A DNA stretch of 64,000 nucleotides from Nymphaea colorata (Eukaryota; Streptophyta; Magnoliopsida; Nymphaeales; Nymphaeaceae): positions 31,779,934 to 31,843,933 of the forward strand of contig NC_045138.2 in assembly GCF_008831285.2 (NCBI RefSeq), in the 5' to 3' direction. The notes under the pieces are model-generated. The model saw nothing but the letters and a program-made list of their open reading frames with translations. It had not been told where the DNA came from and searched no databases. The translations under genes were made by a program, and so were the position numbers. This document shows positions 3,841 through 42,400 of this stretch, piece by piece. Each line of letters starts with the position of its first letter. The first letter of the stretch is position 1.

Positions 3841-4213
3841 TGGAGATTTTGGGAATACAACATAACAAGATAGCCTGCAAGTTAAAATTATTAAAACAAG
3901 ACAAAATAGTGGAAGCATAAAATTGACATGGGATAGTTACACACATTTCTACTTAAAATTTCTGCATCAGCTCTTTATCAGAAAACACCACATAACAGAA
4001 CATTAACAAGAAAAATCTCCAGAAGATCGACAGAAAAATCATCATTTTTTTTAACAAAATAAGGCTTCTTGTTAAGCCATGATATAGCTGCTGCTAGTAT
4101 CATTTGAAGACTATTTCATTATTTTACAAGAAGTTCATGAAAAAATCATTCATGAAGCAGACATATGCATCTTAGAAGACAGACTGTAGATTAGGACAAA
4201 AATAAATTCATAC

Positions 4214-4283
4214 CTCCAGTTGTTCATGCAATCTCTTCTGCACTTCCATTTGTAGTCTCAGTGCTTCAGTAATCTCAATACCC
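4214..4283 (-). CDS. PHR1: PHR1-like coding exon 6 (MYB-CC coiled coil, first half)
   Basis: The exon encodes [11 protein letters not shown] and [12 protein letters not shown], the LHEQLE motif of the MYB-CC family. The acceptor AAACAG is preferred to a nearer TTTGTAG because only it avoids an in-frame stop. The exon ends in phase 0 at a GTATGA donor. The expected continuation of the coil was not found to the left. Confidence 0.9.
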
Positions 4284-7200: not shown

Positions 7201-10200
7201 GAAGTGCCTGAGCAACAGATGTTACATTGTTTGATGCTTGAGAAAAGAATGGAGCACTGTTGGCATGCATCTGATGCTGTAAAGAGCTAGAATAATGAAG
7301 TTCACTTGTGAAACCTGAACTTGTTGAGAACATGTGTCCAATGGCACCATTGTTTGTCGCTATGGATGCTCGATGTTGTCCAACACGGTTTGCCCAAAGT
7401 TCCTTTTCCATTGAAACCTGCTGGCAATCTGGAAGCTTTGGATATTTTTTTTCAGCAGGTGTAGGCAGAACTGATAAAGAAGATGATCTTCCAACAGATG
7501 AATTCATAGCACTTAGTTGCTTTCCCTCTGACCTCTGGCTTGGAAAGATTGAGCGAGCTTCCATTTCTGCCCATAAAAATTGGAAAGATATCTTATATGA
7601 AGTTCTTCAGACATATATTGTGTTCTCACTTGCCATTGTTTACAATATAATTTCCATAATATTGTCCTTAAGATGCTGAGTTTCCAAATGTAAAAACAAC
7701 ATCCAGTCAAAACCCCCAGGACCTGAGACAGAAGAAACCAATTTTGAACAAAAAATGTGAAAAAAATGAGGCACACATATTCAGCGAAACTAAAAAATAT
7801 TCCCAATACATATTCATTGAGTGCACATTGCAGCCATTTACTTTCTATGCATAATAAAGCATTGTCCTCTTCAAGAACATCTTTCTTAAGCCAAGAGACT
7901 TGAAAGGCTCTTTTTCTCTTATTTAAATGTCAAAGTTTGCTAAACAAAAAAATGTTCTCTGTTGTGTCTAAACGTTATAGCTTACGAATTCCACTGAAAA
8001 AGCATCACCTTTCCTTCATTTTCTTCATAAACAAATCACTAAAGAGCCTCATTGGGAAAAACATGTAAGTTGCATAAATTTAACTAGTTCTACACCGACA
8101 GTTTTTCTTCTTTCTTTTGTTCTTTCTGTTTTATTAACAGTCAACTACATATTAGTTGTTGTAGACCATTTTTTGTTTCTGGATTTAGCAAAACCAAAGT
8201 CCCTGGCAACAGGTTTTTCATAGAACTACACTCAGAATGGTAAAATTCTGAGGCTAGATCCTTTACCAGCTCATTGACATAGACCCTGGTATTGCCATTT
8301 TAGTAATAATATCCTAGTTAGAAACATCACGGAGAAATTGTTATTTTGCTAAAGAAAGAAAATCAAAGTGATATGTAGTTCATGTTTTTTTCGCTTCTTA
8401 CAGAATATTTTGGAATTATGTGAACATCTAAACCTTTGTGTTGATATCACAATGTTTAAAAATAGCTGAAGTGTCCATACTCCATAGTGTCGAATGAGTG
8501 AATTCTGTGGAAGCCATCACCAAAAGCAGTGTCCTAATTGGGGATAGATTAATCCCGATAGCCAATCCAAAGAGCAAACCATCCCAAGGAGAAGGAATGC
8601 TGGATTACCTCTTATCTGGGAACTATCATTGATGGGTGAATGCTGCTGGGTGCACAAAGCACTACAAAAGGAATGTCCCTCTTGCTCCCTGAGGGGTCAG
8701 GATTGGAAGTAGCCATGGCTATGGGAGCTATTAGAAGAAAAAAGCTGTTTTCACTAGGGCAATCATGGTGGCAACACTCATAAGCAGTGTTCACCAACAG
8801 TGTGTGACATAAATGACATGAGTTGGGTCAAAACTAAAACAAACAAAACACTTAAAATTTCTTTTGGCAGATTAGCAAAAAGATAAAAGCTTGTAGCATT
8901 TTCATGTTTTGATTGTGAAGAAGGAGAATGATTCTTATAGGTGCACAGAGATTACACAATCTCTACACACCATCGGTGTGACTGCATATGACCACTGCAT
9001 GGGTGCATGACTCGGAACTGTACAGTCATTGCAGCTTAAACCTCAACTTCAGCATTCATCAGTATCATCACATTAATGCACATTAGCTGTATTCTTTCCC
9101 ATTTGAACAATTTCTTTATATGCTGCAGAACACTGGCATTAGGCTAGTTCCTAACTCAACCCCATTCTTAAATAGATATTCCGTATCAGACATTGTAGAG
9201 CAGTTGAGGTATTAAATTACATATTAACTGCAAATTTCAACTAAGGCGGATGCATATCATCATTTTTGTCATTTCTAAGTGTATTTGTCCAAGATGTTGA
9301 TATTTTCATAAATTTCCAAAAAAAAAAACATGAGTCCTGTACTGTGGTTGTCAAGAGTTTCCTAAAAAGTAAAATCTAGTTTGTCATCATGGTATTTCTT
9401 CCCAAAAATACATTCCCTCCGGACATTTGTTATCAGTTTGATATTGAAGTTTGAGCTGTTGATCCCCTATGCAGCATTCTCCATAGAAGGGAGTAGACAC
9501 GTCTATTAAGCTGTATGCACTTTTGGATGTTCATTCTCAACATATGTTTAATCATCTTGCCACTAAGAAATGAACTAGGCATATAGGCTATTTCTTATAG
9601 GACACAAGGAAAAAGAGACAAATTAGTGACCACCATGCGCACATAAGCAATTCAGCTTGGAAGTTTACCATGAGTCACCTTATGAGAAGCATTTTTCTCC
9701 AGTCAATGTCCAAGCTAGAAACATGAAAGTGGGTATAAATATCTCATTAACCATGGAGTAAAGGCTCCAACACTGGGGTTCCACATTTGCACACATGATC
9801 CTTTATCCAGAGCGTATGAACCTATGCTAGTTAATGTAAATTGGGCCTCACACTTGTTCACCTATGTTCTACTGTCTTGTCTGAACTGTTATAATATATG
9901 AAAGCCCAAGAAATGATCACCCTAACGTCATTCATCGGGTTTAGACATTATAGTGATACCTACTTGTCGGATCCTTTAGCACATTTCATTAATACATTTC
10001 CCAGCATTCCACTTGTAGTCATAAACAAGTCCGACAGGCCATGTTCAACAACCAACTCACAGCATAATGTAGTATGTTTTTTAATATACAATCTCACATT
10101 CTGATTTAATTTTACCTTTGTATTGTAGATCCTTTCTATTTTTTACACCACTTGAAAAGCAAAGGTTTCAATTAATTGCACTACTATATTTTTTTCATAT

Positions 10201-15060: not shown

Positions 15061-18000
15061 ATCTTATCTGAATTAACTATTGTTTTAATTCTTAATAATT
15101 CTCTATGCTTCTCGAAGACACTTTTTAAAGAGAAATATTAATTTCTCTAAACAGAGATTAACAACCAAAAAGCCTTAGCCTACCAACTATTTTAAACTTG
15201 AATTAGAGTATGTTAAAATGACTAAAGATGATTTAAGAGGGAAAAACGTAAGTTGAGTCAACTGGTTAACAGGTATTAATATATAAATGAGAAAAGTTGC
15301 TTAAAAATATTAATAGAAAATAATAAATTTTTTAAAATTTGTATAAGTAATTACCTACTGAAAGAAAGAACCGCATGGTTCGACTCAAGAGCGGAGCCAA
15401 AGGGGGCACCGGTAAGAGCCCTGGACCCCTCTCAAAAACAAAAAAAACTTTTTAAAAATTAACATATAAGTTTTCAAAAATTTATACTAAAAACCGAACT
15501 GACGAGTCGAACATGGTACCGATTCGGAGGGATCACACTCCAAAGAAACCGATTCGGTTGAGTCGTTGAAACGGCTAGGAAAAGGCAAAACGTGACAAAT
15601 GGCAAAGTGCCACTTCATTGGTGGCATCCACGCGGGCGCCTGGCAAATTCCGCATTTTGGAAGCAGGAGAGGGGCCTTTTGGTAATTTGAAAAGGTAAAA
15701 TGGGACCATCCTACGCGGCTACGCCGTTGAGCCCACTTGACCATGGTTCGGTCCTTCCGGGTCAAGCCGAGCCTAGGGTCGTGAGCTACAACCAGGGTCG
15801 GGTCGGACCTATCATCGGTAAGACTTTGTCGAATTCTGGATCCTGTGGGTAAATAATTCGGATCCAACTCATTCCCACCTGGATCTATGAATGCGTATCC
15901 AATTCCCTTAACTTCAAGACAGGTCACTTATATGGCGGGTCGGATCTAGGCATGCATTGAACTTGTGTTTCTTTCGGACCAACACTAATCTGATTATCAA
16001 TTAAATTTTATTTTTGCTACTTTAAAAAGTATTTACTAAAACACGTTCTATTTTTTACTGGTCTTCAAAACACACTTAGCAGTTCGGATAATTTTATATT
16101 TAACTGCTTAAATTACACAAGTAACACGTGGTTTTTTCGAAAAAAACACAAAAACTTAACTAGGTGTTTAAAACTTTAAAAAACACATTTTTTTAAAAAA
16201 ACCGTTAAAAACGAAAAAACACACTTTTTCCTTTTTTTTTTTACTTTTTTTCAGATTTTTAAATGTCAAACAATCTTTTTTTCATTTTCTATTTTTATTT
16301 GTTGCAAGTCTATTTATCTTTTGATGATTGTGTTATTAGTTTCTCACTTATTTTATTTTTTCTTTATTTTTAGTTTTTTTTTAATTTATCATATTTTTTT
16401 ATTTTTTTCAAGTTCGGCATATTATACCCGATAAAAACCTCGTCGTTTAATTGTATGAATTACACATAAAAAACAGCTAAACAAAACATTAGACCTAATT
16501 GTGTTTTTGTTATACCACTAAAGTCGAGATAATATTTGTAAAATTTTCCATTGAGTTTGATAAAGTCATCCCACGGACATCCCCAATACGAATTCAAAAA
16601 TGTGGTTCGTTTGGGTCTAGCGCACACTAAGGCTGGGTGTTGGCTCGGGTCAAGAAAAAGGCATCGGGTTGGGTTGGCTCGAATGAGCCTGATTCGACCT
16701 GATAAATTTTTTTTTATTATATATTTTATCTAGGTTCAGTGGCTAACACCGAACCTGTCTTCAGCCATGTCACAAGAACTTTTCATCCTTCCATTAGAAA
16801 ATTCTATGTCTTCGAAATTCATTTTATAGCTTATAAAGGGGCAGCCAAGCCTTCTTCTTGTTTACCATTAAGGGTATTTTTGTTCATTCTAAGTCCCAAC
16901 ACACGGTCTCATGTTAGGGGGCGAATTATATCAAGAGATTATTAAAAAGGCATCTGATGTCAAAAGGAGACCTGTAAAAGAAAAAATTGGAAAATGAATA
17001 AGGTTCATGATAAAATTATGTATTTTCTAGAAAGTAAAAGAATATCCATCTCCTACCTAAAAAAAGTAACACGGTGCCTTGTGTTAGCCACCCAACAGGC
17101 AGTGTCATCTAAAGAGTGTACAAGTCACTTGGAGAATCTAGGGTAGGTGTATATGAGAATGCAGACTTATGCTACCAATTTATATGATTAAAATATGGTT
17201 TTAAATTCTTTTAGATTGATGTAATTGGAGCCGAATTTCAATATATTTGGATCTTCAAAAAAAATAAATGCGCATCAAGTTTAGCAATACAACAAAATTA
17301 AGCAAACACGGAGTATTCTATTCTACCATCTAGCTGAGAACCGAAGCTCTCATGTTTTTCACAATTACATGCTATCGCATGTTGATGTTGTCAGGATGGT
17401 TAAAATTTAAAAATTATCGTTAAAAAACCATCAATATTGGTATCAACCATGATTTATTTTAACTATATTGGTGACATATGCTAGCACTAACTTATATATA
17501 TATATATATTGCCCGCATCAGCCAAACAAAAATCTTATTATAGCTTTCTAAGATCACATTGTCATGACTCAAAAATTACATGTAATGTTCATACCAAACT
17601 TATGCGGCCAACTCAAATGCCCTTTTAATGGAAAAATCCTCGCTCTGCAGTCGTGTACTTCACTTCCAAATGCAGGAAGAGGTCACTTTCACACTAAATC
17701 GCAAGTTTTCCCACAAAAAAAATGTGTCTCATTTGCATGCCTTTGATGAATAGTCTCTTAGAATTCCACCAAACAGTGTGGATGGGGACATAATAATTTG
17801 TTAGACGACAAACGAGAGAAAAATTTTCCTACCAACCGATTTTCCGCCCTTGTTTGCTCTTTGTCAGTGGTACCACATATAGGCCCACGATTATTTTCCC
17901 AGGGCCTTCTTATTTAAAATAACTAAAAAATTATTTAAAATCATTGAAAGAGCTAATAAAAGTCCTTATTTTAAAACTAGAACCATCTCTTATATTTTAT

Positions 18001-18382
18001 TCTAGAATATATGTGAGCCATAATAAAAATTTCCATCTAGATCGTTGTTTTTTTTTTTTTTAATTTCTTCATCAAACGTGAGATATATAATAGAGGTTGG
18101 TTTCCACCTTATGCCTATGGGGCTGAAAACGTATTCCAACCCTACAACTTGAACGGCATTCTCATGATTTTGTAGGGATATTTTGGACCCGTACCAATTT
18201 GCCCTTACAGGGTGGGGGTCTCACATTTAGCCAACAAAGACATTTTGGTAATTTTAAGCCCTGTTATATGTCATAATATATATTCTGCTCCATATATAGT
18301 AAGGTTACGGAGATAGAAAATAAAAAGAAGACATTAGGAATGAGAGAAATGTAGAATCTATTTTTTTTAATACAAACACACG

Positions 18383-18482
<100 letters not shown>

Positions 18483-18654
18483 GATTGGATTTCTCTTACG
18501 TATCTCTTTCTCCCTCCCTTACCAAGTGACAAATAGTGCAACCAGCCGGGTTAAGAGGCGTGTTATAGCTATGTACTCAGTTCAAATTTTGAAGGGTGCT
18601 ATTCTATTGGTATTGAAGAGTGTTGATCTTAAAAATAGAGGTGCCATTACTTAG

Positions 18655-21591: not shown

Positions 21592-22620
21592 CCCTGAACA
21601 TCACTATTTTAGGGATGTAATTTTGAATTACTTAATTGAGGCAAATGGGTACATCTAAAGTCGAATCGAAGAATTGGATCTAATACAGCAAGAAGATGAC
21701 ATTGCAACTTGGCTTATCGTCGGTCAAGAAAGCAAACAGATCAAATGCTCTTGATCAGAATCTAAAATCATATCCAAACACAATCCAACAAGGGAAAAAA
21801 CGAACCAAAATTCAGAAAATACCTGGAACCAATCGAAAACAGCTAAAAGCGCATTATTTATGTTTAATATTAGTGTTGCTCTATTTGGATTTTGTTCTAG
21901 ATCTATGCTAGATCCAACAAACTATGCTTGATAGTCCCAAAATCTTGTCCAAATGCATGCTTGAATCTAGGTGATCCAGATCTCCGCTTGAGTTTTCAAA
22001 ATCAGAATCTCAATCTCACTGGCATCGAACAAGAGTGAGTAATTAGTTAGATTAATATTTGAATGTATAGATGCTTCTAATCAAATTTATTCTAGATTGC
22101 CTTTAGAAAGATTATACAGTAAATTTTAATGCTAGAAAACACAGGTAAAAAGAAGAGCGACAAATATAAAGTCTCTGTTGTGTTTGAAAGTTCACTCAAG
22201 GCACAAGCTGTTCCAAGAAAAAGTTGTCAGTTCGAGTACATAAAGCAGAAAAGAAGGCACAACAAAACATATTATAATGAAAAAGTAAAACTGGCAAACC
22301 TTAATGCACATCTATAATAGATCAATAAATAAAGAAGCAAAGAAGTTGAGGCGCATTTGGTGCATGATTTTGTCATGTGACTTGTCTTTTTCATTTTCCA
22401 TCATATAGTGGCATAAGATGACACCTCAAAGAACCACTCAGAGCTTCTTTTGTTGTTTCATGTCAAATTTTTGTTTGGTTGGAATGAGTTGTGCGGTGTG
22501 TCTCCAGTTTAACTTAACTTGTGAAAGAAGCCGATGTAGGTTTCCACGTGCAAGTTGAATAGGGATGTCAACGGATTAGATTAAAATTGGATGTCCTTAA
22601 TCATATCCAGGATATTCACA

Positions 22621-22830
22621 TATTCAGAATTGAATTCGGATTCAAACAAAGAAAAATCACATCCGAATCTGAAATCTGATTTTACGATTGGAATCCGAAT
22701 AGATTTTATTATGGGAATATATTGATATTCAGAATTGAATTCGGATTCAAACAAAGAAAAATCACATCCGAATCTGAAATCCGATTTTACGATTGGAATC
22801 CGAATAGATTTTATTATGGGAATATATCTG
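22621..22830. repeat. 105-bp tandem duplication
   Basis: Units 22,621-22,725 and 22,726-22,830 appear identical except for one substitution (GAAATCTGAT against GAAATCCGAT). The unit lies inside a GGGATGTCAA-family repeat that starts at about 22,561. Confidence 0.93.
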
Positions 22831-23003
22831 AAAAATAAAAGTAAACTCGTAAAACACTAAAATATTGTATTTTGTAAAATTTGATGTAAAGATTAAAATA
22901 AATTCAGGCATTGTGGTGGTGCCTCCTTGAGGGCAGGTTTGTTATTTAACTAATTTTCACGGGCCATACCGACCAGTCCTTTTGCCAAAAACTGTATGTA
23001 AGC

Positions 23004-23009
23004 CACGTG
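23004..23009. promoter_or_regulatory. G-box (CACGTG) upstream of the small coiled-coil gene
   Basis: CACGTG lies within CCACGTGG, 54 bp before the start codon at 23,063. It is the classic bZIP/bHLH site. Its function here is inferred from position only. Confidence 0.4.
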
Positions 23010-23062
23010 GAAGCACTCGGACAACACTGTGGGTAACCTGAGAAGAAGCAAACGGGGAAGAG

Positions 23063-23138
23063 ATGGACGAGAAGAGCGTGATTGTCGCCGAGGACGGCCC
23101 TTCTGCTGCGGCATCGCAACTCTCTGCTGTCCTCTTCG
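23063..23138 (+). CDS. Small coiled-coil gene, exon 1
   Basis: The exon encodes residues 1-25 and one base of codon 26. The start codon follows a GC-rich leader (GGGGAAGAG then ATG). The donor is GTAATC. Confidence 0.72.
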
Positions 23139-25460
23139 GTAATCTCTCGTTCCCTCCTTTTTTTCTGCGAAATTCCGCTGGATCTTTCATCTCCTTGAGG
23201 CATTCCAGCGAAATTCGGCCGGAAACTCCAAGGGCGAAGAGGATCTCGTGGAACCATCGCCATTCCCCCCTTTTTCAACGTCCAGGGTGTTCTACTTCTG
23301 CTCCTTCCTTACTCAGTGGATAAGGCTGCCGATCCATTCTTCTTGCTTGATTGAATCGGCTTATAATTCTCAATTCTCTACGATGGCTAGTAAATCTCCT
23401 GCTTCCCAAAATGTTCGCGACATGAGTGACGACGGGCGACGGCCTGGGTGACCGGGAAAACTTGGAGGGAAAACGACGGAAATTTTCAGTCATTTTGAAA
23501 ATGAAGATTGACCTAAATGCCCTTCAGCGTCGCGTTCGAGTCAGCCCCCTGAGGCCCTAACTGGGTCCGTCTCCAAGGTCGAGATCTCTGTTAGGGCAAG
23601 TTGTACATTTTTTTTTGTTGGGTGACATTGAAGTTATAAAATATGTTGATATATTTATTGAATAAAATATGTTGATATATTTTATTGAACTTTCCTCAGC
23701 TTTTAGTTTATAAAATATTAGAAAAAAGAAAGTTGCCTTGGGGAGGTTTGATTATTTTTTTTTTCACCTTTCTCGCCCTAAGACAAAGCATTGATTAAAC
23801 AAACGTGATTCTTTTATTGAACCTAACCAGATGAATTAAGCATCGAATTTATTATTGGATTACATCCAAATCATTGCCATTCCTAATGTTATAAATATAT
23901 TAGCTACTTGAAAATTTCTAATATTTAATATTTTTAATTAGTTTAACTTGGTCTTCAATCGTTTTATAGGTAGAAAAAAATGGGAGAGAGACCGACTTAG
24001 CCTTATAGTATCCAATTCACCCTTTCAGCAAAATGACACAGGTTTCCCTTCGCTATATCACGCCAGAAAAATGATACAGGACCCCTACTGATATTAACAG
24101 AATGAGCAGTTGTCCCCAACATATGAGCAGTGGTTTCAAAATAGATATTTCTTAATGTTTACTTGGGAGAGCATAAAATCCTCAAGACCGTACTCTTACA
24201 CCATTCTGGCTTATTTTGGGATTTGAGTAGGCCTACAATACATCCTTTTACAACTCAGAACAGAAGAATAATACACAGAAGCATCACAGCGATTGCAAGA
24301 TTTGAACTTTGAACTCCTTTAGTGTGAGCCCTCTTGCTGCTTGTTTCATTACGTCCCTGCAGATTCTCAAGGCTCTTACACAAGAAAACTGCATTATTTT
24401 CAGTCTTTCTTTTTAACCTTTATCAGAGAAGGGCGAACACCAGTAAGAAAAAGTTTAATCACGCCAATGGTGATTATTCGTGACTACAATCTGATCCATG
24501 CCTTATCCACTAATTACAGATCAAATGCAGCAAGCACAAGCAGCATATGACAACATGCTCAAGATGATCAGGTGATCTCACCTCTTACATACTTTCCTCA
24601 GTCTCAGTATATTTCTGGTATTCTGTTAATTTTAAAGCTTAATCTAGGTCTGGGTCATCAAGTTGTTGTTTGTTCTTGCATCAGAAGTCGATGTTTGTTC
24701 TAATCAAATTGGTTGATCTTGATCATGATCAGACCTCGAATGACTCTGGGTGAGCATGCATGTTCTTGGGGAGTCTAACTGGATCCACATAGAGTTGGTC
24801 CGGAGTTTGGGCACGCTACAGGATCGGCCATCTTTGGTCTAGGCTTGCATTTTAGTCCCTGATGCGTGATTAGTCTTCATTTAATCCCTTGGTTTCCCAT
24901 TTCCAACCCTGAAGCTGCGGGGGCTCAAACAAGTCCAGGCCTCAGGTTCATGCCTTCCAAGCAGCCTCTGATAGTTCAACTTGAACTTAAGTTCGTCACT
25001 GAACGGGTCGTCCCGGCCATGTTCTTGTTAGGCAGGCTCCACGAATTATTGATGCGTCCAACTAGTGGTGGGGGAATTCGGACCTATTTGAATCTGTGAT
25101 CTGGCTGATGATCCGATCTGCTCTCGTCGTGTCACCATGTACCCACGTCCTGTGCCAGGTTAGGTTTAGTCAAACCGAAGGCGGGTTGTACAAATACTAT
25201 GAACAGACACAAAATGCTCCCTGATCTGCACCAACTGCGTCCGCAAATGAAAATGTGTGTGTCTACTTATTGAAGCTTGACTGGTTTCCTTGGAATAAAT
25301 TGACAGTGAGATAGATAGAAGCTCTTCTGAGATAACGGAGGAAGTGGGCAAATGCAAGGAGTGGGCAATTGAGAGGAAGAAGATGGTGGAGGAAGAGAAG
25401 GAGCGTTTCCGGGTAGCTGCTCTTAGTGCCTTGGATCTCCTCAACACAAGCGGCCCCTGA
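23063..25460 (+). CDS. Small three-exon gene, 93-residue coiled-coil protein
   Basis: Three short exons join in frame: 23,063-23,138, 24,520-24,571 and 25,307-25,460 (282 nt including TGA). Donors and acceptors are canonical (GTAATC with TTACAG, then GTGATC with GACAG). The product starts MDEKSVIVAEDGPSAAASQL. It then becomes a continuous charged helix through YDNMLKMISEIDRSSSEI and KCKEWAIERKKMVEEEKERF, ending LDLLNTSGP. Residues about 26-85 are predicted by eye to be coiled coil; there is no signal peptide or membrane segment. The sequence reads like a conserved small plant protein, but I cannot name the family or assign a function. A GC-rich 5' end and a G-box precede it. It is convergent with the FYVE26-like gene. 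Confidence 0.75.
24520..24571 (+). CDS. Small coiled-coil gene, exon 2
   Basis: This 52-nt microexon follows AATTACAG and ends before GTGATC. It encodes DQMQQAQAAYDNMLKMI in the only frame that links exons 1 and 3. Confidence 0.72.
25307..25460 (+). CDS. Small coiled-coil gene, exon 3 and stop
   Basis: The exon follows TTGACAG and completes a split Ser codon. It encodes SEIDRSSSEITEEVGKC, then a Glu/Lys-rich helix, and ends LLNTSGP with TGA at 25,458-25,460. Confidence 0.75.
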
Positions 25461-25623
25461 TGGCACCACCAGGTTCTGCCCCTCTACTCTGCACAAGAAA
25501 GATGATATACCTAAAAACTTCTTGAAAGTCGCAGGTCGTACAGAACATAGTTGGTCGTAGCTTTTGTTCAAGCTTTGCCATGTGCAGTTCCCTTGGCCAA
25601 TTAAGCACAGCTAAAGCAGAAAG

Positions 25624-25628
<5 letters not shown>

Positions 25629-25697
<69 letters not shown>
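25629..25697. repeat. Compound microsatellite (CT)n(TA)n
   Basis: A CT run of about 33 bp joins a TA run of about 35 bp. On the minus strand this is the (TA)n(GA)n order seen at the other compound loci. Confidence 0.95.
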
Positions 25698-25698
<1 letters not shown>

Positions 25699-27128
25699 TG
25701 TCTGCGTTTGGACAGAAAAATCCACCCATCTTTCATAGCAGACCACTCGATGCATAACGGCCATATTGATGGACGAAGGATTTTAACTCCGACACACACA
25801 CACACATGAAAATTTCTATGCAGCCATGGGGCGGATGGCTAAAAATTAAAAGGTTATTGTTAAAGCACCATGAATTAATTCCTCAATAGACCATGAACTG
25901 TTGCTGCATTATAAATCGTCGGTAATGCGCTGTTTTTTAATAATAATTTTTTTCTTTATCCATCAGCAACATCTTACATGCGCCAACATAAAATTCCCCT
26001 ATAATTAACACCTAACACAATTAACGAGCATCTCTTGATATGCATTTTTAAACATAATCTAACTACATGCCGTTCTGTCAATTTTTAGGCATGTTCATTA
26101 AGAAATGTTGGCAAAGAATTTAATAGCACAAAAGAAATTATCTGATAAAAGATTTTAACAATCAAACGAGAGAAAGCTCCTATGTGCAGCAACACAAATC
26201 TGCTCCGATGGGGAGGTTACGCAGAGGCACGGGGCTCCACCCCAGCGTGAACAGCAGAGTTCGAGAGAGTTTTTGCTTGCTTTAATTTTCACATTTTATT
26301 TTTATGCTTTTCTTTGTCTACTCTGTTAAACATTATCCTGGAAGGCCAAAATAGCTTGTAAGGCTCCATACGGGACGAAGATGCGCTTTTCGGTTCTTGT
26401 CATCGGAAATTCAAGCCATCCATGGCCACCAGTAGTAATAACAATGATTCATGAACACGACCAGGCAGCCCACACCATAATTTCCAATCAGAGATACCGC
26501 ACAGCATGCGCCCATCCATATCAGGCTTTAGGGCTATGATTAGAAATCCCGTTTAGAAGGTAACGGACAGAATAATTAGCTATTTTCACATAAACCCAAT
26601 CCTAGCAATATCTAGCTTTACATAAAGCATCGTTTGATCACCACAATCCTATAAGTTCTTCTACTTGATCATAGGACGCCCATACTTATGTAAGCATAGC
26701 TGTAACTAATCCAACGCCCAAAGCCGGTCGGGTATCTACCCCAATCTTTAAGACAGTTTCACATAACTTTGTGGGAGTGTTCGTTGTCAGACACCCCCTT
26801 ATTATTGCACTATGTTGCTATAAAATGGAGAGCTAGTGAGGAGGGAGTATGATAACCAATTCAAGGGTGAATCTGTTTTAATATCATTATATCAAAACCC
26901 AGCAGCCCAATTTTATCCATCAGAGATTTTTTAGTGGCTCTCACTTGTGACTAACAATTATTTGTTTTAGGAGTTGAAATTGCTTTTAGCAATTGACGAT
27001 CATCCAACACACGTTTTTGTTTTGTATAGCCTGTTAATTTTCCCTTGCATAAAAAATCACCACCTGTGAAATTTGACAAACCATAGGGCAAAATAAATGC
27101 TCCAGACAGGGACACAGAGAAGGGGGGT

Positions 27129-27420: not shown

Positions 27421-30400
27421 CTGCAATATTTGGAAGTAAAACCTGTTAGTGTTAGAGCAATGTGCATCCTCCACTAAGCCATTCATTTCCCAAGTCCACA
27501 GATGAACCAGCAGTAATGACAGGAAGATAATTGCAAGTTTGCCCCAAGATTGATACGAGAATCAAAATGGGTCACATACGACAATGGATCAGCTAGTAGC
27601 AAGCTGAGTTGATTTGTGCAAAGAAACCTGAGGACTGTTACTTTTTAGAATTTAACTTCCAAGTGCAGTAAGGGCAACTCCTCCGTCTTAAAGGACACAA
27701 CTTAGTACATATACAGGCCTGGTTCCTGTTCCATGGTTTGATCAACTCCTAACCACCAAAGTAAGACCTTAGAATCATCGAAAAAAAAAAGCTGCTAAGA
27801 ATTTTTAACAATGAAAGTTGGGAAGTTTTACTTTGTGAAGAGCATAGAATTAGAGAAACAAGTATGTTTAGCAGCAAGACGCCAAAAGAAAGCTTTGTTA
27901 TGGGCAGGATTTAGTTTTGCAGGACATAAAAAGGCTGGGAGAATGCATATGGAGTATGGACTGAAATAAAACAGAAAACTTATATGGCATTCACCAAGAA
28001 AATACTGATAAGGCAGCGTTTAACTTCTATAAATTTTTGTTTTGATGTAATGGAAGAAGTGTCTATTACAGAGGCTAAAAAAATTGTACAGGACAATAGA
28101 GCATGAGAACTGATACCTGATGGGCTACATAATCAACATCTGCCGTGCTTCCATTTCGAGATGCAATCTGAAATGCTGTCTTCAGACGCCCACAGATAAC
28201 ACATGCTATCACCTTCCTGCAATGTGTGATTGGAAAAACAAAATGAACGAACCGTTCACAGTCAATACAACTATTCTGGACCAGAAAACTACAAATCCTT
28301 ACAGCTGCAAGGATTGCCCCAAAGAGCAGCAAAATTATAGGGACTTTTGAGATGACTGCTTAGTAGAAAATTCATAGGCAGTTCTTATCATGTAAGCTTA
28401 CATATCAATAACATTCAATAACCTTTTAGCTCTCCAATTTATATCTTAAGCTTCAACCAAAAAGTCAATGATCAAAATGTTACCTGTGCACACTTTTTAA
28501 CATGTCAATAAGTCGATCTGGCCTTTCTCTGTGCTTGTTTGCATATATGACAATGGCAGCCAGAAGAACCTATATTAAACACAAACACAAGAAAGATTTT
28601 ACATCTTTTTATGGACAAAGAACAACATCAATTGATAACCCAGAACCAACAAGCATTAAACCAATTGAAGTTCTCAGTTTGTATCTTTACAGAGTCAAAA
28701 TTCCATTAGCCATCTTGGTTGGAAGGTACTCATTGATAACATGTCAAGTTATAAGTCACCAACCTGGCCCAAGCAGTAACTTCCAAAAAAAAAAAAAAAA
28801 TCCTCATAAGTTTACCTATATAGCTGGAATCTAGTTAAATGTCCAAATACCAGCTCAGCCCTTCATGCCAAGCAGTTTATGGTCTTGATAGTGCTAAAAC
28901 CTAAAGAACCTCAAAAGGTCTTGAACTTTTTACTAAGCTGACTTTGCAGTATCACTGGATTCACCAGATCCAAGTTCACAAATAATAATTGAGAATAACA
29001 GTCTACAAGATCAGATCAAGATTGTACCTGGTCCCAGTCACTATCATCGATCGTACCCTTGATATTCCTTAGAAACTCTGTCAATTGATTTCCTTTCTTT
29101 CTTTCAGCAAGTGATTTTGCCACGGCAGCATAAATGTCAACAGCTGCAACAAAGATTACAAATAAATAAGTACAACTCAGAAATAAAGATGAGGATCCAA
29201 AGAAGACTATCAAGTGACAGTATAACCATAAAGAGATCAAGTATCAAGCGGTTACCAGGAAGGTTGAACTCATAGATTACTTGAAAAGCTAAATCAAAGT
29301 TCTTTTCGGCAAGCGTTTCAGCCACTTCACATCTTCTCCTGATAAGGAATGCCAAGTGTAAAAATGCAGAAATTCCGTGATGGCACTAAAGCACAAGTTG
29401 AAATTTGAAAGGATCAACTTATAAAGCAATAATCAAAATTTTGAGCAGATAATCTCATAGCACATAAATGTATGATAATGCGTAAATGCACGACAATCCG
29501 TTTTGGCTCAGCTGCTTATGTATGAGAAAAAATGACAGCTCATCATTTCCATGAGCAGTCTACTGCTTCTGTCTAGGGAAAGTACCAACACCATCTCTTG
29601 ATCTCCCTAACATTTTGAGTTCAAGCAAAAGATAAATGTATTTCAGGCCAAGATAGATAAGCTAAATATTGGGAGATAATGTAGAACTGGGAAAGATCAA
29701 TACAGTTCCTGTGACCCATAGCTGATTAGAAGTTCGCTAGCAACCTACAGCATTTCAGCCTTAAGTTATATCTTGTTATTGACCTTGTCCAGCAAAAAGA
29801 AGGACAATAGAACTTCTCACTCAGGAAAGCAGTCTCTTAACACCACAAGATAAATATCGGAAACACAGCCTTATAGCTTCCAAGTAATTCAAGGTAAAAA
29901 AGACAATATTTTGAACAAATTTAATTTATGACACAAACATGTTAATATGATATTGCATGCACCATGCTTCATTCCGTTGTTTAATTCAGCAGAGGCATGG
30001 TATCAAAATCTGTCTGTCTAGATCTGTGTGCTAGGAAGTCCTCATACTCTGACTTGTTGATACTCACAGTCACTGTCTCAGGGTGAGAAGAAGATAAAGA
30101 CCCGTCTATAACTGATGACGCTGCCTGGACAGATCCAATAGGAGACTAAAGAATTCTTGCTCTACTTAGGTGTAATATTTCTTCCTAGGGAAGCAGCGGA
30201 AGGACGACCATGTTTATCCCAACATCTGTATTCCAAATGCCCTATTTTCCCACAATAGGTGCACTGAAATCTCCCCCGACCTCCTCTTATCCCTCGACCT
30301 ATGCCTCTCCCCCTGAATGAACTGTGTCCACGACCTCCTGAGGCTACCAAGGCAGAGACATGAATATCACTAGAGGGCGGAGAAAGGGTCACAACAAGGC

Positions 30401-33400
30401 GGCTGAGTCTATTGTAGGCTTCAGATAGGTCGGGAATTTCTGCTTCAGTCAACATCTGTGCCTTTGCTACTGCATATTTAGGAGAGAAACCCTGTAGAAA
30501 CTTCGCAACCATAGACTGTTCACCATGATTCTTATGGCATGTTGGACATGGGGGACGTAATGCTTTAAGTCGTTCATAGATCGACTTGAGGGAAGCGAAA
30601 TACTGAGCAAGACTCTGGTCACCCTGTTGCAAATTAAGTAATTCCTCCTCCACCTGCAATATCTTGCTAACATTCTTGTCATTCAAGTAAGTTTGTTTCA
30701 AAAAATCCCACATTTGTTTGGCAGAGGTATAGAATGCAATAGCAGAAGTAATCTGTGGTTGCACGCTATTCATGATCCAAGACATGACAATATTATTATC
30801 TTCTTTCCATGAAACATATTTTCCACTCTTTCCCACAAGCTCATCTTCTTCTATAACATGCTCCTTCCGATGTCCAATTACAGACATCATAAACACACGA
30901 GACCAAATCTCATAGTTAGATCCATCTAACTTTACAATAGAACCATAATAAAATGGATTTCCTCCACTTTTAAACTCATGAGAGAAATCAATTTTGAGAT
31001 TTTCAGCCATCGCAAAACTGTCCACAAGAGATCAACCACCAACATCACCCAACAATAATAATATAAATATATCTATAGAGAATGAGACTGATCGGCAATA
31101 ATAAAAGTCCAACACCACACAACAGAGGTAAACGCTATCATGTAGTGCGCAGCACTTCTCCCAAACAAATTATGAACAACCAGACAGTAGAATTGAATAA
31201 TATCGTGAGGAGAAAGCAGCCCTTCTTAAAAAAGATTACCTCCACAGCAGACCCACGACAGAAGAATGCTGTAACAATGCTGTCCACCTGCTAACATAAA
31301 CCTCACGACAGCAGAAACTCATCCACAACTGCTAGTTTCAGCGAATTACAACTGCTAGTTTCTGCTTTCTGCCGTCTTCACCATCAGAAAACTAAAAAAT
31401 GCTGCTGTTTTCAGTCTCCTCACACACCATCGGCAGAACATCATCCAACTTGTTACAATAACTCCACTATCATCACGCCTTAAACATCACAAAAAAAAAA
31501 CAGATCTGCTCCACCTGATCTGCTGGTCCTCATAGCAAACAGCAGCCCTACTTAAGGATCTGATCACGCCTTCCACATAGGCGTGATCAGTCCTTCTCCA
31601 AGCAGCACACCCAACTTTTATCTCTTTGCTGCCTCCCTGTTGGTGGGTAAGAAGAGATAAACATGGGTGACGAGAAGATTAAAGAGGAAGGAAGTCGCCG
31701 GAAAAAGAGGTCGCCGAAGAGAGGTCACCAGAAGAGGAAGTCGCCGGACAACTTACTTGACTGTTGCCACAGGAGAAGGCTCTGATACCACGTTGTAGCC
31801 GTGAGACTTGGAGAAAAAAAATTCTGTATTCATTAACCCTAATCTCCCTTATAAAGAGATTAGGGTAGAAAAGAGATTTACAGATTACATCAACCAAAAA
31901 TAAAGAAATTATTAAAGAGGTCTTATAACTCTTTAATTCTACAAAGAGCCACCTAAAAACATAAACTTTTCTAATTCAATAGAAGCGTTAATAAAATCAT
32001 TTCTTGTTCATTGTTAATTGCTAGTGTTATTATTTGTAGACAATCATATGTAGAGCCACATTGCTAGTGTTATTATTTGTAGACAATCATATGTAGAGCC
32101 ACACCTGCATCTCGCACCTGGGACATAGATAATATCTTTCACAATATTATTGTGCAAAAGATGTTGTAGGTATAGTGGTTGCCTCACTTATTGGTTAAAA
32201 CTATTGTTGCAAAAATTATAATTTAAAAAAAAAAGACAAAAGGAAAGGAAAAATGAAGGAAAAGAACAAAAAAAGTGAAAAAATCACAATATTTTGCAAA
32301 AAATGCCAAACTGAAAATAATGTGCTCTGATCTCTTTCTCTGTTTTTTTCCTCCTTTTTTCAGGAAAAATGTTTTTAATATGTTTTGAACTTTTTTGGGT
32401 TTATTTTAACATTCTAATAACTGTAAAATCATTTTTTGTGAGAAAAATAGTAGAAATATCAAATTTTCATAAATTCTTTTTCCTTTATATTTTAGATTTT
32501 TGAACACACACACACACACATATACATATGGCCGACCTCAATTTGAGCTCAGGCTGTCTTAAGCTCGGAAACCTTAACTTGAGTTGGTGGACTTGATCTC
32601 GAACTAAGCTGTTTCAGACTCAAGAGAAGCTGAAGCGAACTCAGCTTAAGCTTGGCTTGAGCAACCTATTTACACAACTTAAAAATAATAAAGTCCTAAA
32701 AGAAAAAGAAAAGTGAGACCATGATTTTGTGGTTGCTTGCAAGTTGCAACAAGTGAAAAAAAAAAGAGGCAGCAAAAGCAAGGATGTGAGAGATGGTAAT
32801 GAACCTCAAATGTTCTACCAAGACTCTTAACCAATAACCCTTGGTTATATAACACTCAGAGATTATCTCCAAGGAAGTAGTGTCACAAAACTGTGGGAGG
32901 CCTTCATGTTGATAAAAAGCACGCTTGTTATCATAACTTTGCTAGTTTGAACTTTGCAGTATGATTTGTATACATAAATCTACGAAGTGTACATAGGTTT
33001 TACTTGCGTAGTCACTTTTTCCCCTCTTTTATGCATTTCCCTATTTTTCCTTTTTGTATTTTTGCAACTGTCCCTTCTCAGTTGAATTTATTTTTCTTCT
33101 AAGTTCAGCCAAGCTAGTTGTTAGCCAGCCCCAATGGCTAGAAACTTCCTTTTGTTAGTTTTCTATAAAAATGGGATTGTTGTCCCATGTAAGGTTAAGG
33201 CCTTTTAGCCTGTTTTCTGATTGTTTCCAGCAGCCATACATTATGTTTCTTTTTCTTGTGGGTCATTGCAAGAGTAAGTTTCTGTTTAATCCAGTCGTGA
33301 GATTGTTGTAGCTCTGGTTTACAATCACTTTCCCATTGTAAGATTTTGATATCTAATACCAAACCACCGAATGAACTTAGATGCAAGAGGAGGAAGAGAG

Positions 33401-36400
33401 AAGTGGGCTGCACATCGAAGCAAAAGAGAGATGAAAGAGAGCAGCAACAAATGACGTCTGCCTCTTGTTATCATTATATACTAATCACGATTGAGGGTAC
33501 ATCATAAAATACACAAAATAACAATAACATTTACAAGTATGCCACCGCCCATGATGTGTTGGACGTGTGGATCAAATGGGTCGGGTCTGGGTGACCTGAT
33601 CCATATGTACAACACGCAACTTGTTCTTCAATTCCAAGAAATGGTGCCCTGTGAGTCTCTTGGTAAAAAGATCAGCCACTTGTTCAGACGTGGATATATA
33701 AGTGGGAACAATCTCATCTTCCGCAACCTTTTGACGAATAAAGTGTTGATCAATCTCTATATGCTTAGTGCGATTATGTAGAACAAGATTGAAGGCAATC
33801 TTGATTGTGCTTTGGTTGTCACAAAATAGAGATGGCTGAGCAATGAGAAGAGAAAGTTTCCCAAGCAGATGACGTAACCATGAAGCTTCAGCGGTGCCTG
33901 CAGCCATTGCCCTATATTCTGCCTCAGTGCTAGATCTGGCAACTGCACGTTGTTTCCTGCTACTCCAACAAATAAGATTGGAATCAAGAAAGAGACAAGA
34001 ACTGAAAACTGATCGTCTATCATCTGGATCACCTGCCCAATCTGCATCAATATAAGTGGAAATGTTGTGGCCATGCAAAACAGTTGACTGTCTTGTGTAG
34101 ATGAGTCCATCCCCAAGAGTAGCCTTAAGATAACGCAAAATACGTTTGGTAGCATCCATATGCCCTTCTGTGGGTGCATGCATAAACTGAGAGACTTGAT
34201 TCACAACATATACTATGTCTGGACGTGTAAAAGTGAGATATTGCAACATGCCAACTATACTCCGATAGAAACTAGGATTTGGGTATGCATCACTCCCATC
34301 AGATGCATTTAATTTTGTGTTGAAAACACTAGGTGTATTTATGGGTTTGCAACTTGTCATACCTGTCCTATCCAAAATATCAAGAGTGTATTTATGTTGT
34401 GTAAGAGTTAATGTGCCACATTTTCTATCAAGCTCAACACCCAAGAAATACCGTAGTTCGCCGAGATCCTTTATCTTGAATTCTTGTTGCAATACCTCCT
34501 TAACATGGGATATATGACATGAAGAGTTTCCAGTAAGAACTATGTCATCTACATATATAAGTAGCCAAGTGGTAACTTCACATGAATGATAGATGAATAA
34601 AGAATGATCAAGTGAACTTCTGAGGAAACCAGCCTGTTGGATATGGAGGGAAAATCTATCGAACCATGAACGAGATGCTTGCTTAAGCCCATACAGTGAT
34701 TTTTGTAATTTGCACACCCATTTGGTTGGATCATTGGAAACATATCCTGGAGGTTGTTCCATATAAACTTCTCCCTTTAGAAAGCCATGAAGAAAAACAT
34801 TTTTAACATCCAACTGATATAAATTCCAACCATATGAGACGACAAGAGAGATGATAACCCGGATCGTTCCCATCTTGATGACTGGACTGAAAGTCTCATC
34901 ATAATCTTCTTTGTACTGCTGAGTGAAGTCTCTATCCACGAGTCGAGCCTTATATCTATCAATGCTTCCATCAAGTTTATACCTGAGTTTGTAAACCCAT
35001 TTTGAGCCCACTATATTCTTACCATCTGGACGAGGAACAATCTCCCATGTTTGACATTCATTTAAAGCAGTCATTTCTTCATTCATGGCCTCGATCCAAT
35101 GTTTGCTTTTGCACGCTTGCTCATAGCATTTTGGCTCCACCTTTTTGTTCAATTCTGTTATGAAGAGCTGAAAATCCAAAGAGAAATTACCATAACTTAC
35201 CCATCTATCAATAGGGTGCCGCACACGTTCTGATCTACGTGGGCAAGTAGTGGCAGTTTCTGGATCAACTGGAACTGATCGTCGATTATACACCATTCTT
35301 GAAAACCGATTAGGTGAAGTCATGCTCATGTTGTTGGTATGAGTAGATGAAGGTATGTTGTCCATCTGAGTGTTTGTGGCTGTTTCAGGCTCATCAATAG
35401 TTCTGTCACTTTGTACGTGGTGTGTATCAACTCTTTGGTCTAATATTTCAGCATTCAGCCATGAGTCATATACATCATTTGTAACATTAAGTGTTGCATG
35501 TGGCTCCCTTAAATCCTTCAACCTGAGTTTCATAAAAAAAACATGTCGTGAAATATGAACACGTCCAGCTTTTAGATTGTAACAGCAATAGCCTTTATAA
35601 TTTTCTGCACAACCCACAAATCTACACATGACAGCTCGATCTTGAAACTTATTTCTCAAAGAAACATCAACATGAACATAACAAATGCATCCAAAAACAC
35701 GTAGCTCATCATAATTTGGTTGTTCTTGATGTAAAATAAAGAATGGAGATTTTCCTTCAAGCATGGATAGTGACAGTCGATTAATAACATGAACACCAAG
35801 ATGAAAAGCTTCAGTTCATAAAGTCATGGGCACATCAGTGTTATGCATCATACTGAGAGCACTTTCAACTATGTGCCTATGTTTTCTTTCAGCAATACCA
35901 TTCTGTTGTGGTGTGTGAGGACAGAAAATCTGTCTAGTGATCCCATGATTTAGTAAGAACTCAATAAATTCATTTGAAATGAACTCACAACCACCATCAC
36001 ATTGGAAATGCACGATATTACTAGAGTATTTGTTTTGGACCAAGGCGTGGAATTGGGTGAACAAGCGAAAAACTTCTGATTTGCTTTTCATGGAGTGGAT
36101 CCAAGTGTAACGAGAATAAAAATAAATGAAAACAACATAATATTTACTCCCGGAAGAGGAAGAAATAGGAGCAAGCCCCCAAACATCAGAATAAATGGTG
36201 TCAAATAACTTCGAAGCTCGCTTATTTATTGATTGAAAAGGAAGAACATGACTCTTACAAATATGACAACTCGAGCACATGCTAGACTCACTGATAGGAC
36301 TTAGACTGGACTTTTGTAATAGTCCGTCTGCAACAAGACTTTGAATGAAGGACTGACTACAATGTGCTAAACGACCGTGCCAAAGAGATGACATATCATA

Positions 36401-39400
36401 CTCTGTGATATTGACTTCACTATGACTGGGAAAGGATGAATCTGAAACACAAGACTTAGACACTTTTGGAGCTTCTTCAATGACATACATGTCTCCTTTG
36501 TGAACACCCTCAGCGAATGTCTTCTTGGTTTGAGCATCCTTAACATAAACAGAAGAAGGAGTAAACTCAATAGAGGAAAGAGTATCATTAATAAACTTTG
36601 ACACAGAAATGATATTTTTCTTGACATTTAGAACAACAAGAACATTCTTTAAGGGTATTGAGGAATGAGCCATGGATAAGTGTGCATTTCCAATATGTGA
36701 TATTTTGTGATGGGAACCATCTCCTGTGACAACTGAGTCTTTAGCTAAATAAGGGAGAGCACTAGAAAGCTTACCTGCGTCACCAGTTACATGAGCTGCA
36801 ACACCAGAATCCACATATCATTGTCCTTCCTCATTTTGCTTGAGATTGATTTTAGACAACGCTATCATTAGAATCTGCTGCACATCAGGGGAAATGTTCG
36901 ATGCCGCAGTCATGTTCGAAACAGATGACCCTACTGCCTTATTGTCACGCTTGACCTGTTTTCCCTTGTTCTGTGGGTTATGCCAACATTCTGACTTCAC
37001 ATGACCTCTCTTATTGCAATAAAAACAAGTAGGTATCATTCGTGGTACATTTGCCTGTGCATTTGTGTTAGGTGTATGAAGGATACCTCTCCCCATCCCT
37101 GCCTGTGAGTTCCAAACTCTTGGACGACTTCCTTGTAAAGCATGGGTCCCAATGACCAATACATTGTGACCGCCAGAATGAACTAATTCATGTCGTTGTA
37201 CACGACTTGCTTCATGCTGAATCAATTTTGCTTTCAAGTCTTCAAAAGAGGGAAGAACATGCAATACCTCTGAAGCAGTGCAGAAAACATAAAATTGTGG
37301 CCCCAATCCACTCAAAGCCTATTGTACCTTGTCCTTGTCACTGACTGGATGCCCTATGATGGCAAGCTGATCGCTGACATTTTTTATCTCATGTATATAT
37401 TCCAAGACTGAACGTGTGCCTCGCTTGATATCCTGACATTGCCTCTTGAGTTGTAGAAATCTCGCTTCTGATATTTGAGAATATGTGGTAGCAAGTACAT
37501 TCCACAACTCAAGTGCTGAAAGATCATCATCAACACCCGCCAAAACTTCCCTTGATAGTGTGGAGGTGATATAAACAACGAGAAATTGATCATGAGTCAT
37601 CCATATCTCCTATTTAGGAATGATTTCTGCAATAGTCTCTTGAACTTGCCCTGCAGCATTCTTCACCTCTCGCATAATCCATTCAGGTGGCGCAAGTGTG
37701 GTGCCATTGAGATGTCCATAGAGACTGTGACTCTTGATGAACGGGACTATTTGACGCAATGTTGTACGTATCGTACGATACGACCCCGTATCGTACGATA
37801 CGTATCGTATCGTTTGAAGAAAACGATACGATACACCCCTCGTATCGTAAAAAGGGGGTGTATCGGCCCTGTATCGCACGTATCGTACGATACAGGGCCC
37901 GTATCGTACGATACGGGGCGATACACCCCGTATCGTACGATACGGCCTAAAAACGCAAAAGGGGGCCGAGACCTACTTATTCGGCTTCTTTTTCAAATTT
38001 TTCTTTCGTTCTTCATTTCTAACGCTTGGATAGTGCCGTGAGGGAGGGCGATCGTTCATTTTGACCGTGAAGAACTTGATTTTCATCGTCAAATCGAAGA
38101 TTAAGTGGTCGATTTGTGCGTGGGTGCTTGATTTTCGTGGGAAGGAAAGGGGTTTTCTTCATTTCAGACATTTCTTCTTCGTAAGGTATGAAATCTCATG
38201 TTCTTACCATGTATTCTTAATTTTTTACCGTATAATCGTAGATTTGAAGACTTTGAGTGTTTTTCATTAAGTTTACCATAGGATTTCGTTTTTTTTTTTG
38301 AAGATATGGATCCTACATGGCAATGGTGCGAAAGGGTGAAGGAGAATAACCGTTTGAAACTCAAATGTGGCTTCTGTGGGAATACACTTTCAGGAGGAAT
38401 TATTAGAATGAAACACCATTTGGCAGGGACCTCCAAAGATGCGTCTCCTTGTGTTGGAGGACCAAACAAACCTTTGCCTCCATTTGTGCGTCAACAATGT
38501 TTAGATATGCTTCATGCTTTACGTCAAAAGAGAATACAAAAAGAAATTGAAGATGCAGATGTAGGCTATAATGTGCCTTTGGAAGATGAAGAAGAAGAGG
38601 ATGAAGCTTATTAATGTGATGATGAAGACGATAGCAGTCTAAGAACAGATTTGGAGACCTCAAGAGGTAGAGATCGTAGAGGAAAAGGGATTATGTATGA
38701 AGGAGGTCGATCTGGCATAACGGGAAGGAAGAGGAGAGGCACAACAGATGTTAGGGCCAGGCGTGGTATGCGACCACCTAGTGGTAGAGTTCCTACTGGT
38801 AGGTCTAGTGTTGGCTCTATTAAGAGTTTTTTCCCTTCATATACCAGCCCAGGTGGTCAGCCGCAGATTCGTGCTGCTATGACATCTAAAGATATGCTAT
38901 ATCATGCACAAAAGCAGGTAGGGAAATGGTTTTATGATGCCTGTATTCCATTCAATGCAGCTAATTCTTTTCAATTCCAAGCCATGGCAGATGCAATTGC
39001 TTCTATAGGCCCCGGATTCAAAATGCCATCATATCATCAGTTGAGAGGCAAAATTCTTCAGGATACAGTCAAAGAAGTGTCTGAGCATTGCGATGAGTTG
39101 AAATTATGTTGGAAGGAAACAGGTTGCTCCATTATGTCAGATGGTTGGACTGATACAAGGTCAAGAACACTTGTAAATTTTCTTGTGTATTGCCCTAAAG
39201 GTACAATGTTCTTGAAATCTCTTGACTTGTCTGATGTTCCTAAGACTGCTGAGATTTTATTCAATGTTTTTGATAATGTTGTACAAGAAGTTGGACCTGC
39301 AAACATTGTACAGTTTATTACAGATAATGCTGCAAATTATAGAGCTGCAGGAGATTTGTTATTTCAAAAGTATAGAACATTTTATTGGAGTCCATGTGCC

Positions 39401-42400
39401 ACTCATTGTGTTAATCTAATGCTTCAAGATCTTAATGAGATGCATGATATGAAATCAGCCATTGACCAATGTCAAGAGGTAACAAAATTTATCTATAATC
39501 ATGCATATGTATTGAGTTTGATGAGAAAATTTACAAAAGGAGTTGAATTAATACGACCTGCACAAACTAGATTTGCCACAAATGTATTGACTGTGCAGAG
39601 TGTGGTGAAACAAAGAACTCCTTTGAGACAGATGTTTGCTAGTGAAGAATGGGCTGCATATCCACATGCTCATAAAAGAAATGCTTCTTTAGTTGTGGAT
39701 ATTATATTCAATAACGTATTTTGGGAATCATGTGTGAAGCTATTGAAGGTTTGTGTTCCATTAGTTAAGGTTCTCAGGTTGGCTGACAGCGAGGACAGAC
39801 CTTCTATAGGGTACTTATATGAGGCTATGGACAAAGCAAAAGAGGCAATTCGAGACAACTTAAAGGAAAAGAAAAAGTTATATATGCCCATATGGAAGAT
39901 TATAGATAAAAGGTGGACTGGACAGCTTCATCAACCTCTTCATGCAGCAGCTTATTATCTAAATCCTGCAATTAGATTTTCTCCTACATTTAAGAAGGAC
40001 AGAGAAGTCATGCATGGTTTGTTAGATTGTATTAATGTGTTAGTGGAAGATTCTACAGAACAAGATGCTGTGCACAATGAGTTGGATCTATATGATAGTT
40101 GTTTTCGGAACATGGGACTACCTGCCGCCGTTCGAGCCAGGACAACGATGCGTCCAGGTAAATACATAGAAATTTTTAATTTACTTTGCATTTGTTACAT
40201 TTGATTCTTTTAAAACTTTCACATTGATTTGTTATATTTTTGTTTAGATTTGTGGTGGAATAGGTATGGGTTTGATTGTCCAAACCTAGCACGTTTTGCA
40301 GTCAAAGTCCTCAGCCAGACATGCAGTGCTAGTGGATGCGAAAGGAACTGGAGTGTGTTCCAACATATCCATAGCAAAAAAAGGAATAGGCTCGAACATA
40401 AAAGGTTGAATGACCTTGTCTTTGTTCGATATAATATGAGGTTGAAACAAAGGTAATATAGGCATATACCTTAATTAATGTTTACATTTTTATGTACAAT
40501 ATATTTATATGAAATTATATACTAACAAATTTTCTCTTATTTAATGTAGAGAATTAGAAAAATCATTAGCAAGGAAGCACACATCTCAGTTCGATCCTAT
40601 CAGCTTGGAAAATTTTGACGATCTAGAGCCATGGATTGAAGAAGAACCAACTACAATATTTGATGATGAAGATCTTGAATGCTTCAACCTTGAAGTTGAA
40701 GCAACAGAAGGCTTTGTTGATGAAGGAGAGTCTGCTACTGCTGGTGCTGGTGCTGAATATGTTGGTGAAGATCTTCCAATTCTTGACGATGAAGAAGAAG
40801 AAGAAGATGAAGATGAAGATGATGAAGATTATGAATGATGAATCATGAATGAGAGTCAAGTCAAGAGTGCTTTCATTTTATATGTATCAAAAACTTAAGA
40901 GTTATGAATCTATGGTTGTTGAACACTTGATTGAATGTTTTATCATTTATGACTTTATCACTTTATGGCTTATGGCCTTATGCTTTGTTGAATGATATTG
41001 TATTATTGTTATGAATTTTGATGTTTATGAATGATGAACGCGTAAGTTTATAGCAATAATAAGTCTATCATTATCTCAAACATGTTTTCTATGAACAATT
41101 TATTATTTTTAATTTTTTCTGATTTTTTTATGAATTTTCCGAATTTTTTTAAATTTTTTCTGATTTATTAATAATTTTTTTAAAAAATTTACGATACGGT
41201 TACGATACGTTACGATACGGCGTATCTTAAAGCCCGACCGATATGGCTTACGATACGCGTTTTACAACATTGATTTGACGTTTCCATATCAAATAATTGG
41301 TATGATTTAGCTTTTGTGAGATGAGTTGGGAGAGAAAATTGGACGACAAGATGCTGGAATTGCGGTGGGGATCCATAAATGCAATAATCAGAAAATAGGG
41401 GAAAAATAGAAATTTTGAGATTAGGGTTAGGTGGTTGACGGTAGGGCAGACAATAGGATTCGGGCAGATGGTAGGGTTAGGGCAGACGGTAGGATTAGGG
41501 TAGACGATAGGATTCGGGCAGAAAATTTGGGGATTAGGGTTAGGGCAGAAATTTGGGGATTAGGGCAGAAAATAGAGATTTGAGGATTAGGACAGAAAAG
41601 AAACAAAGATTAGGACAGAAATTAGAGATTCTTACCGAACATTCTCAGTGGCAAAACCTTGCTCTGATACCATGTAAGATTTTGATATCCAATACCAAAC
41701 CACCGAATGAACTTAGATGCAAGAAGAGGAAGAGAGAAGTGGGCAGCATGTCCAAGCAAGAGAAAGATGAAAGAGAGCAGCAACCAATGACGTCTGCCTC
41801 TTGTTATCATTATATACTAAACATGATTTAGGGTACATCATAAAATACACAAAATAACAATAAGATTTACAAGTATGCCACTGCCCATGATGTGTTGGGC
41901 GTGTGGATCAAATGGGTCGGGTCTGGGTGACCCGATCCATATGTACAAACTTAACACCCATAAATTCAAAAAGTTAGCTGTATTAAAAGTCTCTACAGTT
42001 TAGACCGGTTCCCTCTGCAGTGCAATTTGAACTGAAGTCCTTGATTTATGTATGAGTGGTCTACTATATAAAATAATAAATAATTCCCATACGACACAAA
42101 GACCAGAAATATACCATGCAATCTGTGTCCTTGATAATTATGAATAACAACAAATATTCCTAGGTTATTTTGCCATAAATGATAGGAGAAACACTAACCT
42201 GAAGGTTTCTGGATCATTAGGATTTCCAAAAAGGGAATGCTTCCATGGAGGCCCATCATTATCGCTGAATGATTTCACTACATTGACCTGCATGCAATAT
42301 GTTAAGTTGTTCAAATTGCTCAACTTTTAAGATTGAATTAAGATTGACAGGGAAGAATGCTGTCTAACTCAAGGACAAGCTCTCTCTCTCTCTCTCACGT

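Follow-up and report, generated by a model that had tools for sequence, protein, structure and literature searches.

A probable three-exon gene for a small acidic coiled-coil protein in Nymphaea colorata

The described systems that come closest to the locus analysed here are the small, unnamed coiled-coil proteins of plants, taken as a general category, and several components of the synaptonemal complex. Among the latter, SYCE3 is a small helical protein represented by the Pfam profile PF15191 and by the PDB entries 4r3q and 6h86, and it has been reported as vertebrate-specific (Fraune et al., reported in PMC4132317). For the plant complex, PMC13170185 describes SCEP1 and SCEP2 as small coiled-coil proteins. 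Here we analyse a window of 64,000 nucleotides of Nymphaea colorata DNA, in which three short exons on the forward strand would encode a small protein with a long heptad-patterned helix, and we compare this locus with the systems named above.

Exon structure and coding signals of the locus

A sequence-only reading of this DNA had proposed that three exons, hidden from ordinary open reading frame scans by their small size, encode a coiled-coil protein of 93 residues. Its exon coordinates, the exon lengths of 76, 52 and 154 nt, the GT and AG ends of the introns and the 93-residue translation with its stop codon were all reproduced (Table 1). When joined, the exons form an uninterrupted frame of 93 codons that is translated as MDEKSVIVAEDGPSAAASQLSAVLFDQMQQAQAAYDNMLKMISEIDRSSSEITEEVGKCKEWAIERKKMVEEEKERFRVAALSALDLLNTSGP and then ends in the stop. 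The introns are of phases 1 and 2 and split the codons of D26 and S43, respectively, and an in-frame stop lies upstream of the ATG, as the eighth codon. In the region 22900-23050 the motif TATA[AT]A is absent. Just 5' of the gene, at 22620-22827 of the window, a unit of 105 bases is present in two near-identical tandem copies.

Table 1. Parts of the candidate gene, in positions of the window.
Feature	Position	Strand	Description
Probable 5' untranslated / promoter stretch	22943..23062	+	GAAGAG ahead of ATGGA; CACGTG at 23004
Exon 1	23063..23138	+	start codon, residues 1-25 and first base of codon 26; without heptad pattern
Intron 1	23139..24519	+	1381 nt, GT...AG
Exon 2	24520..24571	+	52 nt; remainder of codon 26 through second base of codon 43; predicted coiled coil begins
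Intron 2	24572..25306	+	735 nt, GT...AG
Exon 3	25307..25460	+	154 nt including stop; last base of codon 43, residues 44-93; predicted long charged helix

Recovery of this structure does not depend on prior knowledge of the exons. A gene finder that combines codon log-odds (from an Arabidopsis codon table) with splice-site weights for Arabidopsis-like plants was applied to the entire window and was not given the proposed exons. Among three-exon models with their stop at 25460, the one that it ranked highest was identical to the claimed structure, with a score of 28.8 bits. This model is the fourth among the non-overlapping loci of the + strand, and the three above it overlie transposon frames; three further loci that outscore it on the - strand lie over or against transposon frames. 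Taken one by one, exons 1 and 3 look coding on their own and exon 2 does not. The codon scores of exon 1 (9.9 bits) and exon 3 (13.6 bits) were each reached by none of 20000 random draws, whereas the 1.0 bits of exon 2 are not significant, a fraction of 0.11 of the draws being as high. Of 13991 stop-free windows of 50 codons in the sequence, 142 equal or exceed the score of exon 3, transposon genes and mutually overlapping windows being counted in. In a list of 40 loci of the window, the top-scoring 50-codon stretches at exon 3 and exon 1 stand 5th and 7th, and that at exon 1 extends into intron 1. Splice-site scores are modest: the two donors have 0.31 and 2.73 bits, the two acceptors 1.56 and -1.14 bits, the second acceptor thus being weak.

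Heptad pattern and predicted helix

The sequence-only reading had also described a heptad periodicity that crosses both exon junctions, and this part holds for one junction and fails for the other. Exons 2 and 3 are in the same register. Over residues 27-88, a stretch of 62 residues that we chose ourselves, a single heptad register is found with the a/d residues MAYMIISIVCARVEFAAL, and only 12 of 20000 shuffles are as good; hydrophobic residues at a and d, repeated over several heptads as in a coiled coil, extend over these 62 residues. Each of the two exons, taken alone, picks the same best register, although the pattern by itself is significant for exon 3 (145 of 20000 shuffles as good) and not for exon 2 (3257 of 20000). 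When the 32 candidates for the middle exon that measure 40 nt or longer were ranked by the joint heptad score and by the hydrophobic fit to the register of exon 3, the claimed exon 2 came first; the register of exon 3 is the best register for nine of the 32. Exon 1, in contrast, lies off the register of exons 2 and 3, which ranks fifth of seven for it, and its own best register is not significant (3358 of 5000 shuffles as good). Continuity of the heptads from exon 1 into exon 2 was therefore dropped.

AlphaFold2 predicts residues 44-93, modelled alone, as one helix over positions 3-47 of 50, with a mean pLDDT of 89.8. The predicted 93-residue protein is acidic, with a pI of 4.5, and two inner heptad positions carry charged residues (R and E). 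Such charges inside the heptad would be easier to reconcile with a partner helix than with a simple homodimer. If the three exons are transcribed and spliced as modelled, the product would begin with an acidic N-terminal part, about 25 residues long and lacking a heptad pattern, and continue with a heptad-patterned helix of about 60 residues. Judged from this pattern, the helix may pack on a like or an unlike helix, and it seems plausible that the protein would be a small subunit with a structural or adaptor role in a larger complex.

A second copy in the genome and the surroundings of the locus

The genome that we searched comprises 407,766,735 bases in 783 contigs, with the window at C1:31779934-31843933, and copy counts obtained from it are lower bounds for repeats. 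A search with the protein recovered the locus in the window, in two rows, and at least one other place, C14:4688939-4689094 (-); a DNA search with positions 24450-25500 of the window led to the same two places. The C14 copy matches positions 24117-25837 at 89%, with an additional match of 22 bases at 24058, and covers exons 2 and 3 together with intron 2. It resembles the window only from about 24058 onwards, that is, from inside intron 1, and the 9.5 kb around it hold no credible match to exon 1. Exon 3 of the copy has a premature stop. By its sequence, the C14 copy is a decayed and 5'-truncated duplicate. Between the two copies, 9 of 206 sites differ in exons 2 and 3 and 82 of 1270 in the non-coding sequence compared (Fisher p = 0.28). 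Since this difference is not significant, the pair neither shows nor excludes selection, and the C14 copy was set aside as a proof of it.

By eye, copia-like sequence seems to flank the duplicate on both sides within C14:4687439-4690594, as though retrotransposons had captured or cut it. In the window, three stretches are of the copia-type LTR retrotransposon kind, partly read by eye from the list of open reading frames (28000-37300 (-), 47768-52150 (+) and 55900-59600 (+)), with Pfam matches to gag at 30162-31031 and to gag-integrase at 47768-50533. An open frame of 529 residues at 38615-40204 (+) carries a DUF659 domain (E = 4.9e-60) and probably belongs to a transposase gene of the hAT type. 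Other features of the window include a match to U6 spliceosomal RNA over the full length of the model at 3763-3860 (+) (70.5 bits, E = 8.1e-16), and fragments at 3300-7606 (-) that, by eye, resemble a gene for a MYB-CC (PHR-type) transcription factor, within which a frame of 230 residues has no Pfam match. An open frame at 62300-62908 (-) presumably resembles a spastizin-like protein; it has no Pfam match either.

Alternative readings and comparison with known proteins

A hidden three-exon coiled-coil gene is the best reading of the evidence, which consists of the open frame, the unguided recovery by the gene finder, the codon scores of exons 1 and 3 and the common register of exons 2 and 3; the periodicity once claimed over the first junction is no longer part of it. 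We consider it likely that the locus is an ordinary nuclear protein-coding gene, in which three exons would be transcribed and spliced to encode an acidic coiled-coil protein of 93 residues. An unlikely alternative is that a real gene includes exons 1 and 3 but is built differently, with a middle exon in place of or besides exon 2, or with another last exon. The missing coding signal of exon 2 and the weak second acceptor are in line with such a differing structure. If extra introns are left uncharged, the best four-exon variant scores 33.6 and the best five-exon variant 41.8 against 28.8 for the claimed model, and the exact structure hence needs transcripts. However, the top five-exon variant no longer ends at the 25460 stop and translates a GA microsatellite. 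When exons 1 and 3 are kept constant, moreover, the claimed exon 2 has the top score among 47 frame-compatible canonical middle exons of 20-400 nt, itself included (29.6 versus 27.0 for the next); in this ranking, as in that for heptad register, the candidates overlap each other and do not count as independent tests. Its first place for the heptad register of exon 3 likewise speaks for the three-exon structure as claimed.

It is quite improbable that the locus is not a gene, its exons being either framed by chance splice-like sites or left over from a gene that has decayed and lost its expression. The gene-finder score favours a gene but alone is not proof, because genomic DNA read in reverse attains it too. 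In 200 kb from the same chromosome, taken as 20 segments, 27 loci score at least 28.8 in the forward direction (16 of 20 segments), and nine do so when the DNA is reversed without complementing (seven of 20 segments), any mirrored real genes counted in; eight of these nine are not low-complexity by our own measure. The nine equal-scoring loci speak for this reading, and so does the lack of visible constraint against the C14 copy. In its favour, too, the window itself contains another three-exon model almost as strong, of 28.4 bits, at 15700-18654 (+), which begins with MGPSYAATPLSPLDHG and runs into an RE-repeat derived from a microsatellite. Against a chance origin, none of 100 dinucleotide shuffles of window positions 1-28000 (1-kb blocks, both strands) reached 28.8, the maximum being 25.9, and the same 28 kb in reverse hold no locus at this score, the top score being 24.9. 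Two separate coding-like exons and a coiled coil that stays in register also argue for a gene. The locus is probably a real, ordinary and unnamed small plant gene.

The sequence-only reading had named no family and considered that the product may be a conserved but poorly described plant protein. Searches for a family of the three-exon gene product gave few leads. For the joined protein no Pfam model reaches the cut-off, the best being ProSAAS with E = 0.1, and NCBIfam lists none; two fragments of the protein yield sub-cut-off Pfam matches only (E = 0.16 and 0.18). A peptide pattern matches 21 stretches of viral contigs and 131 stretches of prokaryote contigs, and tblastn confirmed none of either set. 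The string YDNMLKM does not occur in the literature searched.

A more specific proposal would be that the three-exon gene encodes a plant relative of SYCE3, that is, a small protein of the central element of the synaptonemal complex whose core in common with SYCE3 would be the YDNMLKM-S helix. We regard this special case of the preferred reading as very improbable. It goes back to a phmmer search of the PDB, in which SYCE3 (4r3q) gave a marginal match over residues 31-60 (E = 0.039, domain E = 0.11); the only other chain up to E = 1 was a hydroxyglutarate synthase (0.64). A pairwise BLASTP alignment with SYCE3 has 11 of 24 identical residues over residues 35-58, across the junction of exons 2 and 3, and its score was reached by none of 19993 scored shuffles. 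The lengths of the two proteins, 93 and 88 residues, are similar as well. On the other hand, with 177,635 PDB comparisons a best match of this quality may arise by chance in a few cases per hundred, and the likeness covers one short helical stretch. The Pfam profile Synaptonemal_3 (PF15191) is absent from the matches listed up to E = 10 for the whole protein and for the two fragments, in a search whose speed filters may drop weak matches, although the same profile finds human SYCE3 at 6.7e-46. Membership in the SYCE3 family is thus unsupported by this profile, and the reported restriction of SYCE3 to vertebrates also stands against it. ZSL of Brassica napus was followed as a further lead and proved to be the homologue of SCEP3.

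Compared with the components of the synaptonemal complex, the predicted protein shows both likeness and difference. As in SYCE3 the chain is small and, by prediction, helical, and the two have one stretch of 24 residues with the 11 identities in common; the local alignments reach only residues 31-60 or 35-58, and the family profile is not listed for the protein. SCEP1 and SCEP2 are likened to it by their description in PMC13170185. SCEP3/ZSL differs, since Arabidopsis SCEP3 has 803 residues and 16 exons (PMC12283363). The evidence calls for no new kind of system, and the weak SYCE3 lead alone would be of wider interest: if it were true, part of the synaptonemal complex would predate the split of plants and animals. 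If the gene is real, it is another short multi-exon gene of the sort that escapes open reading frame scans, and the proteins of an early-branching flowering plant would be extended by a small coiled-coil member. From the general category of small unnamed plant coiled-coil proteins the product differs in that no specific family in Pfam or NCBIfam fits it, and it shares with these proteins a short acidic chain and one long heptad-patterned stretch.
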